Part shown: in pieces, positions 12,689 to 16,514 of the stretch
Position numbering within the stretch: position 1 is the stretch's first letter
How the letters are laid out: each line of letters opens with the position of its first letter
DNA from: Sphingomicrobium sp.
GTDB taxonomy: Bacteria; Pseudomonadota; Alphaproteobacteria; Sphingomonadales; Sphingomonadaceae
NCBI GenBank assembly: GCA_036563485.1
Contig: DATCMI010000001.1
Location: 890,938-954,937, forward strand
Length of the DNA: 64,000 nucleotides
Direction: 5' to 3'
Made by a program: the position numbers and the translations under genes
The notes under the pieces: model-generated
Databases searched by the model: none
Told to the model about the DNA's origin: nothing
Seen by the model: only the letters and a program-made list of their open reading frames with translations

Positions 12689-13093
12689 ATGCGTCTTACC
12701 CACCTCGCCGATTATGCGGTCGTGATGATGACCGCCGCCGCCCGCAGGGGCGAAGGCGAACGGCTGTCCGCGACCGAGCTCGCCGAGGAAACCGGCGTGC
12801 CGCTCCCGACCGCGCAGAAGCTGATGGGCAAGCTCGCCGCCGCGGGCCTGCTCGACAGCGTGCGCGGCGCCGGCGGCGGCTTCACGCTCGCGCGGCCCGG
12901 GCAGCAGATCAGCCTCGCCGACATCATCGAAGCGGTCGAGGGCCCGATCGCCATGACCCAGTGCAGCGGCTCGGACGAAAGCTCGGACTGCGCACTCGAT
13001 GCGCACTGCCGTGTGAAGCCGCACATGAACATCGTCAGCAACGCCGTCCGCGGCGCGCTCGGCGCCGTCAGCCTCACGGAACTGGCACGATGA
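12689..13093 (+). CDS. Rrf2-family SUF operon regulator
   Basis: A 134-residue winged-helix regulator ([14 protein letters not shown] start, helix-turn-helix around [20 protein letters not shown], wing [12 protein letters not shown]). Three cysteines near the C-terminus, in [17 protein letters not shown], match the cluster-binding cysteines of IscR-type proteins. It therefore probably reads Fe-S status through a bound cluster and adjusts transcription of the operon it heads. Its TGA overlaps the sufB ATG. The ATG at 12689 is the natural family start. Confidence 0.93.
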
Positions 13094-14559
13094 CAGACGA
13101 CGTCGCCAACGCCGAAATCCGCGAGAAGATCGCGCAGGATTACGAATGGGGCTTCGTCTCCGACGTCGAGCAGGAGTTCGCGCCCAAGGGTCTCAATGAG
13201 GACACCGTCCGGTTCATCTCGGCCAAGAAGAAGGAGCCCGAGTGGATGCTCGAGTGGCGCCTCAGGGCCTATCGCGCCTGGCTGGAGATGGAGGAGGTCA
13301 GCTGGGCCAAGCTCGACATCCCGGCGATCGATTTCCAGGACGCTTATTATTACGCCGAGCCCAAGAAGAAGCCGACGCTCGCGTCATTGGACGAGCTCGA
13401 TCCGGAAATCCGCCGCACCTATGAAAAGCTCGGCATTCCGATCGAGGAGCAGAAGGTGCTCGCCGGCGTCGAAGGCGCGCGCAAGGTCGCGGTCGACGCA
13501 GTGTTCGACAGCGTCAGCGTCGCGACCACCTTCCGCGAGGAACTGTCGAAGGCGGGCGTCATCTTCCTGTCGATCTCGGAAGCCATCCGCGAGCATCCGG
13601 AGCTGATCCGCAAATATCTCGGCTCGGTCGTTCCGCAGCGCGACAATTACTTCGCCTGCCTAAACAGCGCGGTCTTCTCCGACGGTACCTTTGTCTACAT
13701 CCCTGAGGGCGTCCGCTGTCCGATGGAGCTGTCGACCTACTTCCGCATCAATGCCGAGAATACCGGCCAGTTCGAGCGTACTTTAATCGTCGCCGACAAG
13801 GGCAGCTACGTCAGCTACCTCGAAGGCTGCACCGCGCCGATGCGCGACGAGAACCAGCTCCACGCCGCGGTCGTCGAAATCTTCGCGCACGAGGACGCGG
13901 AGGTGAAATACTCGACGGTCCAGAACTGGTACCCGGGCGACGCCGAAGGCAAGGGCGGCATCTTCAACTTCGTCACCAAGCGCGCGCTATGCAGTGGCGA
14001 CCGCTCGAAGGTCAGCTGGACCCAGGTCGAGACCGGCAGTGCGATTACCTGGAAATATCCGAGCTGCATCCTCAAGGGCGACGGCAGCGTCGGCGAATTC
14101 TACTCGGTCGCACTGACCAACAACCGCCAGCAGGCGGACACCGGCACCAAGATGATTCACATCGGCGCCAACACCCGCTCGACGATCGTCAGCAAGGGCA
14201 TCAGCGCCGGCCGCAGCGACAACACCTATCGCGGCCTCGTTCGCGTGCTCCCGAAGGCGGAGAACGTCCGCAATTTCACGCAGTGCGATTCGCTGCTGCT
14301 CGGCGACCAGTGCGGCGCGCACACCGTGCCCTACATCGAGGTCAAGAACCCGACCGCGACCATCGAGCATGAAGCGACGACGTCGAAGATCAGCGAGGAC
14401 CAGCTCTTCTACGCGATGAGCCGCGGCCTCGATCAGGAAGCCGCGGTCGCGCTGATCGTCAACGGCTTCGCCCGCGAAGTGCTCAAGCAGCTGCCGATGG
14501 AATTCGCGGTCGAGGCGCAGAAGCTGCTCGGCATCAGCCTCGAAGGGAGCGTCGGCTGA
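13090..14559 (+). CDS. sufB: Fe-S cluster assembly scaffold SufB
   Basis: Core of the SufBC2D scaffold on which Fe-S clusters are built in the cytoplasm. The 489-residue protein begins [20 protein letters not shown] and has the right-handed beta-helix core with [44 protein letters not shown] and the conserved C-terminal cysteine stretch [16 protein letters not shown]. The length and motifs are fully conventional. The in-frame open reading extends much further upstream, but the family start and the ATGA overlap with the regulator fix the start at 13090. Confidence 0.98.
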
Positions 14560-14852
14560 TGGCGCGCGCCCTTGTCGTCGCCAACATCCGCTTCAAGGAT
14601 CGCGCTCGCTACGATGCCTATGCAGCGGCCTTCCCTGCCGTGTTCGCAAACAGCGGCGGGAAGATGCTCGCGGCGGACGAAGCACCGCAACTCGAAAGCG
14701 GCGACGGCTCGGGCGTCGACAAGATCGTCGTCATGCGGTTCGACAGCGAGGAAGCGGCGCGCTCCTTTCTCAACTCTCCTGAATATGTGCGGATCGCCGA
14801 AGACCGCGATGCCGGCGCGGACGTGACCGCGTGGATTGTGAAAGCTTTTTGA
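14559..14852 (+). CDS. DUF1330-family small protein inside the suf operon
   Basis: A 97-residue ferredoxin-like-fold (dimeric alpha/beta barrel) protein. Family features are the initial strand ALVVANIRFKDRARYDAYAA, the phrase KIVVMRFDSEEAARSFLNSP and EYVRIAEDRD. The biochemical role of DUF1330 is not known. It is joined by TGATG overlaps to sufB on one side and sufC on the other, so it is translated with the Suf machinery. It has no cysteines, so it is unlikely to hold a cluster itself. It is not one of the standard Suf components. Confidence 0.85.
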   Translation: MARALVVANIRFKDRARYDAYAAAFPAVFANSGGKMLAADEAPQLESGDGSGVDKIVVMRFDSEEAARSFLNSPEYVRIAEDRDAGADVTAWIVKAF

Positions 14853-15682
14853 TGCTCCAGATCAACAACCTCCAGGCGACGGTCGCTGACAAGCCGATCC
14901 TCAACGGCATCACCCTCGATGTGCCGGCCGGCGAAGTGCACGCGATCATGGGGCCGAACGGCTCCGGCAAGTCGACGCTGGCCTACGTGCTCGCCGGGCG
15001 GCCGGGCTATGAAGTGACCGGGGGGTCCGTGATGTTCACCACTTCCGTTCGCCCTGAGCCTGTCGAAGGGCTGTCCTTCCCTTCTGAAGGCAAGAGCGAG
15101 GACAGTGCTTCGACAAGCTCAGCACGAACGGTGGATCTGTTGTCCCTCGAACCGCACGAGCGCGCCGCCGCGGGCCTGTTCCTCGGCTTCCAGTACCCGG
15201 TCGAAATCCCCGGCGTGTCGTACCTGCAGTTCCTGCGCGAAAGCCTCAATTCGCAGCGCCGTGGGCGTGGCCAAGCGGAGCTGTCAGGCGGTGAGTTCAT
15301 CAAGCTCGCGCGTGCGCAGGCTGCGGAACTCGGCATGGACGTCGAAATGCTCAAGCGCCCCGTCAACGTCGGCTTTTCCGGCGGCGAGAAGAAGCGCGCC
15401 GAGATGGTCCAGATGGGCATCATGGACCCGAAGTTCGCGATCCTCGACGAAACCGACAGCGGCCTCGACATCGATGCGCTGAAAGCCGTCGGCGCCGGCA
15501 TCAACCGCATCATGCGCGCCCCCGGCAAGGGCGTGCTCCTCATCACTCACTATCAGCGCCTGCTCGACTATGTGCAGCCGGACCGCGTCCACGTCCTTCG
15601 CGCCGGCCGCATCGAACGCAGCGGCGGGCCGGAACTGGCGCTGGAGCTCGAACGCGAAGGCTATGCCGAGGTCGCGGCTTGA
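14852..15682 (+). CDS. sufC: SufC ATPase carrying an in-frame palindromic-repeat insertion
   Basis: ABC-type ATPase that powers the SufBC2D scaffold. The ATG at 14852 gives 276 residues against about 248 for E. coli SufC. Walker A is GPNGSGKST (residues 34-42), Q-loop FQYP near 113, signature FSGGEKKR, Walker B FAILDETDSGLD and switch TH in LLITHYQR, all intact. The extra length is a segment at about residues 65-93, SVRPEPVEGLSFPSEG continuing to SSARTV, encoded exactly by an 87-bp palindromic repeat (15045-15131). Removing those 87 bases leaves F-TTL-DLLSLEPHERA, aligning without gaps to F-KGK-DLLALSPEDRA of E. coli. The insertion lies in the beta-strand region between Walker A and the Q-loop, where a surface loop could tolerate it. 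Confidence 0.95.
   Translation: MLQINNLQATVADKPILNGITLDVPAGEVHAIMGPNGSGKSTLAYVLAGRPGYEVTGGSVMFTTSVRPEPVEGLSFPSEGKSEDSASTSSARTVDLLSLEPHERAAAGLFLGFQYPVEIPGVSYLQFLRESLNSQRRGRGQAELSGGEFIKLARAQAAELGMDVEMLKRPVNVGFSGGEKKRAEMVQMGIMDPKFAILDETDSGLDIDALKAVGAGINRIMRAPGKGVLLITHYQRLLDYVQPDRVHVLRAGRIERSGGPELALELEREGYAEVAA
15045..15131. repeat. 87-bp palindromic repeat inserted in sufC
   Basis: Two 32-base arms, 15045-15076 and 15100-15131, are near-perfect inverted copies with a 23-base loop. Each arm contains the core TGAGC(C/T)TGTCGAA. Within each arm a 5-bp stem can also form: GCCCT..AGGGC on the left and GTGCT..AGCAC on the right. Between arms these stem bases differ but stay paired, which suggests selection for folding. 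The element is 29 codons long, has no stop in the sufC frame, and is the type of dispersed repeat seen in sphingomonad genomes. Confidence 0.92.
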
Positions 15683-15700
15683 TGAAACGCCTGAACAAGA

Positions 15701-15762
15701 GCGCTCACATTGAGCTTGTCGAAATGCGGGCGCTCGCCCTTCGACAAGCTCAGGGTGAGCGC
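15701..15762. repeat. Second palindromic repeat, between sufC and sufD
   Basis: Arms 15701-15726 and 15737-15762 are inverted copies (GCGCTCAC..TGAGCTTGTCGAA) with a 10-base loop. They differ only at two pairs of positions: AT/AT in one arm and CC/GG in the other, each still paired within its own arm. The core is the same as the copy in sufC. It fills nearly the whole sufC-sufD gap and ends six bases before the GTG chosen for sufD, so it will shape the mRNA just ahead of sufD. Confidence 0.9.
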
Positions 15763-15767
15763 GGTTG

Positions 15768-16514
15768 GTGCCAGTGACCGCACCCTTCCCTACCCACGCC
15801 CATGAGGACTGGCGCTACGCCGACCTCGACGCGCTGAAGCCCGTATGGGAGCAGTTCGCCGAGCCGGTGACGGTGGTCGTTGCGCCGGGAGAAAGCCTCG
15901 AGGAAGTGTGGCTGCCGGTCGCCGACGAGGTCCAGGTCCGGCGCGTCCAGCTCTCGCTCGGCGAAGGTGCGCGCGCTCGCATCTTTGCGCTGAACAACGC
16001 CCCGGTTTACGGCCGCGTCGAGCTTGAGGTCAGCCTTGCGACAAGCGCCGATTTCGAACTGTACGGCGCCAATATCGGCGGCGGGCTTTCGACGAACGAG
16101 TTCGTCACCAAGGTACGCCACCTCGGCCCCAACGGCCGCTCGCGCCAGACCATCCGCTCGGTGCTTAACGGCAAGGCTACCGGCTCCTATCTCGGGAAGG
16201 TCGAGGTCGCGCGCGGCGCCCAGCAAACCGACGGCGAGCAATCGATCAAGGCGATGCTCCTCGACCGCGGCGCCACCGCCAACGCAAAGCCCGAACTCGA
16301 AATCTACGCCGACGACGTGAAATGCGCCCATGGCGCCACCGTCGGCGAGCTCGACCCCATGCAGCTCTTCTACGCCCAGAGCCGCGGCCTCGACCCGGCA
16401 AGCGCTCGCGCGCTCCTGCTCGAAGGCTTCATCATGGGCCTGTGGGATAGCGCCGCGCACGCGGACGCGATTGCCGAGGCGGCCCGTGACGCGCTGCGCA
16501 AGGTGGTCGCATGA
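15768..16514 (+). CDS. sufD: Fe-S cluster assembly protein SufD
   Basis: Partner of SufB and SufC in the scaffold complex. The protein of about 248 residues has the SufD C-terminal beta-helix pattern: GANIGGGLSTNEFVTKVRHL, DGEQSIKAMLLDRGATANAK, and KCAHGATVGELDPMQLFYAQ with the conserved His. It is much shorter than E. coli SufD (about 420), lacking most of the N-terminal helical domain; it still begins with the family WRYADLDAL motif. Start candidates are TTG 15765, GTG 15768 and GTG 15774, all directly after the palindromic repeat; none has a strong Shine-Dalgarno, so the exact start is uncertain. Confidence 0.92.
   Translation: MPVTAPFPTHAHEDWRYADLDALKPVWEQFAEPVTVVVAPGESLEEVWLPVADEVQVRRVQLSLGEGARARIFALNNAPVYGRVELEVSLATSADFELYGANIGGGLSTNEFVTKVRHLGPNGRSRQTIRSVLNGKATGSYLGKVEVARGAQQTDGEQSIKAMLLDRGATANAKPELEIYADDVKCAHGATVGELDPMQLFYAQSRGLDPASARALLLEGFIMGLWDSAAHADAIAEAARDALRKVVA

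Follow-up and report, generated by a model that had tools for sequence, protein, structure and literature searches.

REP/RAYT systems and BIMEs are built from inverted pairs of two unit types. Repeats of this kind inside genes are also known, as Rickettsia palindromic elements (RPEs) and as CGTC REPs, the latter also in sphingomonads. RPEs are palindromic repeats that are inserted in frame into genes (PMC10969869). CGTC REPs, which are defined by a CGTC tag (or TGTC/CCTC), an 8-9 bp stem and a 4-5 nt loop, are mostly head-to-head dimers, predominate in alphaproteobacteria, including S. wittichii, and are described as having no dedicated transposase (PMC3733652). The same account places REPs inside tRNA synthetase and pseudouridine synthase genes of S. 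alaskensis and “E. lithoralis”, and at about the same recB site in two Xanthomonas species, the only same-site case that its section 15 names (PMC3733652). Nematomorpha mitochondria likewise carry inverted repeats within coding sequence (PMC6649704), and the insert in sufC described here resembles these in being made of inverted repeats inside a coding sequence. What is new, as far as we have seen, is the recurrent occupation of one turn of SufC by many repeat families across a bacterial family. The main text of PMC3733652 does not mention sufC (its supplementary gene list might name it), and our search of the literature did not find sufC as an insertion site.

The window, a 64,000-nt stretch of Sphingomicrobium sp. 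DNA, carries a suf cluster in which sufB precedes sufC, and sufD, sufS and more genes follow; the neighbours bear the names that we presume for them. The sufC gene (14852..15682, forward strand) encodes a Fe-S assembly ATPase of 276 aa, insert included, and was recognized from its open reading frame, TIGR01978, PF00005 and an alignment with E. coli SufC. We took ATG 14852 as its start (the ORF listing has an upstream GTG at 14831), and the reading frame from 14852 to 15682 is stop-free in that listing. Its product scores 308 bits against TIGR01978, the NCBIfam SufC model (cut-off 212.8), and 279 against a second SufC model, NF007134, which is under the latter's threshold of 400. In the alignment with E. 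coli SufC, query residues 1-62 correspond to 1-62 and residues 94-272 to 65-242, a net gain of 29 residues. The open reading frames taken as sufB (13090..14559, forward strand, start set within the listed ORF) and sufD (15765..16514, forward strand, TTG start as listed) provided context and served as control genes.

An 87-nt element (15045..15131, forward strand), delimited by its complementary ends, its hairpin and comparison with empty-site relatives, starts at position 2 of codon 65. It begins with CCGTTCG and finishes with CGAACGG, and 28 of the 33 outermost nucleotides of its arms are complementary, compared with 22 of 33 for the next-best 87-mer in the window. Its fold, computed with 5 nt more at either end, has an energy of -56.8 kcal/mol (z -8.3), a value equalled by none of 200 shuffles. 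The shuffles, together with the arm complementarity measured against the rest of the window, rule out a chance hairpin. An automated inverted-repeat search of 14800-15400 reported no pair, in our opinion because the arms are imperfect, and Rfam gave no matches at gathering score across 14800-15900 and six below it. An assembly artefact is also ruled out: the genome (G000, 2.33 Mb) is one contig, and the remaining filled sites were assembled independently, one of them on a complete Sphingopyxis chromosome (L053). By its arms, fold, frame and alignment, the in-frame 87-nt palindromic repeat that the sequence-only reading had described as adding 29 residues to SufC is real. The further proposal that it could be deleted exactly holds only in part. 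Without it the turn keeps 9 nt of flank, 7 nt on the left (15038..15044, forward strand) and 2 nt on the right (15132..15133, forward strand) that finish the Val codon preceding DLL, both delimited by comparison with empty sites; but the nine differ from the bases at the empty sites of congeners, which read GACGGCCGG in L132 and GACGGGCAG in L129.

The element had also been taken for one long palindrome; judged by its sequence, it is instead two inverted REP-like units. The left arm (15045..15077, forward strand), recognized by its unit pattern and within-unit complementarity, is one unit of the form CGTTCG-CC-CTGAGC-CT-GTCGAAG-GG. A spacer (15078..15098, forward strand), whose sequence differs among relatives, separates it from the right arm (15099..15131, reverse strand), an inverted unit whose pattern is of the other dinucleotide type (TG/CA). 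Of 32 units from SufC inserts of this repeat family, hereafter family A, 30 have complementary variable dinucleotides to the two sides of the core, as have 19 of 19 other units of the G000 genome (shuffled maxima 17 and 12, respectively). Both units of one element were never of the same type (0 of 15 in SufC, 0 of 8 elsewhere), where 3.8 would be expected (P 0.011, treating related sequences as independent). These opposite types account for four of the five arm mismatches, and with 0 of 23 same-type pairs it is as if identical arms were avoided within family A elements.

Outside SufC, 8 of the 11 copies that we looked at in this genome have two inverted units and 3 have one, the 11 excluding variants such as L001, L005, L010 and L042. 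Of the 32 SufC units, 22 have CGTTCG ahead of the core, as do 17 of the 19 other G000 units; none of the remaining listed variants is CGTC. The core CTTCGACAAGCTCAG has four matches in the window at up to two mismatches (0.13 expected), and the whole 2.33-Mb genome has 17 occurrences of its 14-mer (reversed controls, 0); going by such matches, the element belongs to a genome-wide family of inverted REP-like pairs. A second, related inverted pair lies in the gap between sufC and sufD (15701..15762, no strand assigned), with core matches at 15710-15724 and 15739-15753 and ends set by eye, in a region that folds at -48.6 kcal/mol. Variants like this second pair are present elsewhere in the genome at L001, L005 and L042.

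Family A resembles CGTC REPs in that inverted dimers prevail and in that G000, by a search for PF01797 alone, lacks that transposase. It differs from them in carrying CGTT rather than CGTC, in the 5-bp stem and 11-nt loop into which both window units fold, and in lacking a CCA tail. As in REP/RAYT systems and BIMEs, the family A element is an inverted pair of two unit types; the RAYT domain (PF01797, Y1_Tnp) has no match in G000, and nine of the matches that it has in other genomes are over the cut-off. With RPEs, the repeat shares its in-frame position within conserved genes (in G000 those for SufC, Uup, an E2 acyltransferase and an AMP-binding enzyme). RPEs, however, comprise several families over many genes, whereas at SufC many families share one site. 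No RPE models were among the NCBIfam matches listed, from a release that may not hold such models.

The same surface turn of SufC is also filled in relatives. We read 46 distinct filled sufC sites in sphingomonads, and one more at a contig edge, from loci that comprised the best 80 of 574 confirmed, a set skewed to the query, plus further genomes. The strand-ending Phe and DLL are usually separated by three residues in empty sufC genes, compared with 27-53 residues (median 34, n=45) in filled ones. All 45 parsed inserts are in frame and without a stop, although the reading passed over frames with stops, so that they are open partly by construction. No sufC locus was found to have been lost through this stop filter, and 36 full-length matches of a rescreen are stop-free. 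The +1 frame is likewise open in 37 of the 45, making the open frame weak evidence of translation. Nearly all inserts (42 of 45) fold with z below -3 (40 base shuffles each).

Within Sphingomonadaceae, 38 of 397 genomes are filled, spread over 17 of 96 genera. Among the 397, 77 were rescreened, with extra regions read, 299 were called empty by score, with the places printed in part, and 21 were left out of the rescreen (17 because their matches were fragmentary or poor, and 4 others). A class-wide draw of 142 genomes gave a SufC match at cut-off in 90 and none in 52; by their printed coordinates, none of 88 SufC matches outside the family has an excess of 12 or more codons, the largest being 6. 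In control genes from the same loci, inserts of at least 12 aa were found in 0 of 98 SufB (loci with near-full coverage), 0 of 77 SufS, 1 of 100 SufD and 5 of 72 SufT sequences, and these six, of which the SufD insert is 13 aa long, are non-palindromic by eye.

Nine sub-families of insert can be told apart by eye: A, that of the window (VRAEPVEA/STSSGRT); B (RHCEERSDEAI/LLRSARND); C and E, counted as one (PGESRGP and PGEGRGP, with FRRG or LRRG); D (RHPRESG/RFRGND); F (PVLDTG/QVRG); G (PGLEPGS/PDQVRGD); H (SEVET or SEVEG); I (PLAGGAGGG/PPLTPPASGRG); and J (CSGEGRS). There are resemblances among C/E, D and J and between F and G, and perhaps between A and H, which leaves at least five groups that are unrelated by eye, the means by which both the labels and the merging into groups were made. 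Genus g54 alone accounts for six sub-families, in seven filled species. A CGTC start is present at this site in B, D, F and G. In folds of one unit each, cut by hand from CGTC to CCA, a sub-family G unit (L190) has the CGTC, 8-bp stem, 5-nt loop and CCA tail of a CGTC REP, and a sub-family D unit (L056) has CGTC, a 7-bp stem, a 4-nt loop and CCA, for which the CGTC REP comparison value is an 8-bp stem and a 4-nt loop.

These relatives alter how the insert is to be seen. The likeness to RPEs drawn by the sequence-only reading stands insofar as an in-frame repeat, apparently of a different kind, lies in a housekeeping gene of a sphingomonad, but the insert is no one-off, as several groups occupy the turn in relatives. 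Unrelated repeats at the same position, which that reading had named as counting against it, are what we found, and they broaden the finding without removing it. REPs inside genes also have precedents outside Rickettsia, including in sphingomonads (PMC3733652).

The ends of the filled loops follow a pattern of their own. Among 45 filled and 95 empty parsed loops, from which L179 and some divergent loci were excluded, Pro is among the first three loop residues in 38 of 45 filled and 0 of 95 empty loops, and DLL is directly preceded by Ile, Val, Leu or Met in 44 of 45 filled and 9 of 95 empty loops; 92 of the 95 empty loops have Gly at the second turn residue. Residues are associated with the filled state by 0.6-0.9 bit within the loop, and nowhere outside it by more than 0.21 bit, with small residual association at scattered positions from -25 to +14. 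This suggests a tight turn that was locally remodelled into a loop start and a loop end, and the sharing of the end pattern across repeat families, a point against the tolerance reading given below, could reflect a shared short cassette or positive selection. Within family A, the phase is constant in 18 of 18 SufC inserts, and the flanks vary by codon steps (4, 7 or 10 nt on the left; 2, 5, 11, 14 or 17 nt on the right).

On a tree of 147 rows built without the insert columns, parsimony counts 26 changes between filled and empty, and 36 with sub-families as states. For the 132 better-covered rows the counts are 24 (22-26 over 300 of 1000 bootstraps) and 30 (29-31), and shuffled labels give 28-38 filled/empty changes on the same rows. 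Fewer changes than with shuffled labels, yet about 24 of them, point to some inheritance and much turnover. Drift of an ancestral loop into a palindrome is ruled out, with filled genes interspersed among empty ones and the families recurring elsewhere: A, B, C/E and G, the sub-families covered by the counts (D, F, H, I and J were left out), have 1 to 144 further matches in the searched genomes that carry them in sufC. In the L194 insert a second palindrome appears to be nested inside the first, with the frame still open, and L059 has a 9-residue loop with filled-type ends that looks like a remnant. Candidate excision scars in G119 and G396 proved to be ordinary empty sites.

Occupancy goes with the repeat load of the genome. 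Matches summed over four repeat cores reach a median of 65 among 37 filled genomes, against 7 among 36 empties, a roughly 9-fold difference (P 5.5e-6), where the empties were hand-picked from the same genera and P values are uncorrected for relatedness. For family A, the median number of copies other than the one in sufC is 46.5 in 14 A-filled genomes versus 1 in empties. Two observations count against the load reading. Relative to other filled genomes, a genome is significantly enriched in its own family in the case of A alone (P 0.03; B 0.13, C/E 0.055, G 0.11). In addition, G295 and G350 are filled with three or fewer matches to the four cores, and G042, G171, G265 and G050 are empty despite 82, 76, 66 and 61 family A copies, respectively.

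AlphaFold2, run on 42 sequences, returned a model (pTM 0.82, mean pLDDT 83.3) whose best fold matches in the PDB are the SufC structures 2d3w and 5awf. Residues 67-75 and 81-88 have pLDDT below 50 and are flanked by strands 53-64 and 92-95. Modelling had been proposed as a check when the insert was first read, and it places most of the insert, at low confidence, between these two strands, as a predicted disordered loop. Across seven pairs, with one row used twice, pN/pS is 0.49 in inserts and 0.11 in flanks, and pS is 0.29 and 0.33; the L181/L186 pair was excluded from these sums since its ungapped flank comparison looked misaligned. The higher pN/pS at similar pS suggests that the peptide is weakly constrained and that the RNA is under no additional constraint. 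Selection for a hydrophilic frame is unsupported, with a median GRAVY of -0.86 in the used frame and -0.81 in the +1 frame.

We consider it probable that the SufC turn is a permissive beta-turn at which repeats pass a selective sieve, with turnover, through tolerance and repeat pressure combined. The beta-turn between two strands of the ATPase domain would be the insertion-permissive site, reached by inverted pairs of REP-like units as these spread through sphingomonad genomes. In-frame copies at the turn would survive because a disordered loop of some 30 residues spares the ATPase fold, and those landing elsewhere in such genes would mostly be purged, so that occupancy would come to track the repeat load of the genome. 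A surviving copy would be translated and its ends would shift to the Thr-Pro ... Ile/Val/Leu pattern, after which the filled loop would drift under weak constraint until lost, invaded or replaced. The site might instead be kept filled for a function, as a regulatory loop or as an mRNA hairpin that tunes output, with any repeat co-opted for the purpose. Loop ends that are alike whatever the repeat family, the strong hairpins formed by most inserts, the length range of the inserts and the many changes on the tree are all compatible with such a role, but the majority of relatives are empty, the groups' peptides look dissimilar, occupancy tracks repeat load, and the near-equal pS of inserts and flanks in the seven pairs gives no sign of constraint at the RNA level. 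We regard a maintained function as unlikely, if the least unlikely of the alternatives. We are similarly doubtful that a docking turn is repeatedly and adaptively filled, with selection favouring a loop or mRNA hairpin built from any mobile palindrome; were this true, unrelated selfish repeats would have been convergently domesticated as one protein part.

Filled and empty genes might also be two old alleles that are swapped between species by short-tract recombination, with few true insertions. In the 60-nt windows next to the insert, filled L176 and empty L064 have mostly 94-98% identity, and yet all three turn codons differ; simple insertion into a preserved target would not give this, and short-tract exchange is a fair rival. 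L057 and L176 hold a homologous insert with empty relatives placed between them, and L181 and L186, far apart on the tree, have 22 of 30 spacer bases in common, a hint that a filled allele was passed on or that both inherited one old insertion. Exchange of old alleles is nonetheless unlikely, given the six sub-families inside genus g54 and the sharp drop outside the loop of the association with the filled state; beside the L176 insert, moreover, no divergent tract is seen against L064, nor is a wide recombination tract. A mobilizing machinery that prefers this DNA site would turn the hotspot into targeting rather than tolerance, in keeping with the turn being always the same and with the single phase of family A. 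This is distinctly unlikely: the site is common to different repeat groups, family A flanks differ by codon steps, the same repeat in the same phase is present in other G000 genes, and PF01797, absent from G000, has a match in only 10 of 73 genomes. It is very improbable that the insert is missing from the protein through ribosome bypass or removal from the RNA or DNA. Hairpins in coding sequence may recall bypassed elements, but the kept frame, stop-free in 45 of 45, the one family A phase and a pN below pS would all be needless if the insert were skipped.

Translated as a flexible additional loop, the repeats would make the SufC turn a natural record of repeat DNA turning into protein. It offers a replicated natural experiment, with one site in one conserved ATPase, several repeat groups, about 24 changes and close filled/empty pairs, in which tolerance and co-option of such insertions become directly testable. 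Annotators can take the long SufC variants of this family as repeat insertions, and for protein engineering the turn is a candidate insertion-tolerant site.

Three conserved G000 genes besides sufC hold a family A repeat in frame, and the in-frame copies read VRxEPVE and/or STSSxRT, in the phase of the SufC insert. One encodes the ABC-F protein Uup (G000:C1:1467506-1469416, L200). In the linker of an E2 acyltransferase (L011 1040-2383) the copy is degenerate, with one recognizable unit, and in an AMP-binding enzyme (L004 791-3013, minus strand) it lies within the PF00501 match, in the SufC phase. The remaining G000 copies that we inspected are, by eye, apparently intergenic. We searched for Uup in 99 genomes and read 30 loci, leaving 69 genomes unread; the same turn is filled in 3 of the 30 (G000, G028 and G066, from three genera), each time by family A as judged by eye and with a loop starting Phe-Pro. 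Uup of G039 had appeared filled by score and was empty on reading. The filled Uup turn of the three genera is documented by L014, L200, L201 and L217, and in Uup of G066 (L217) the left half of the insert has grown in tandem.
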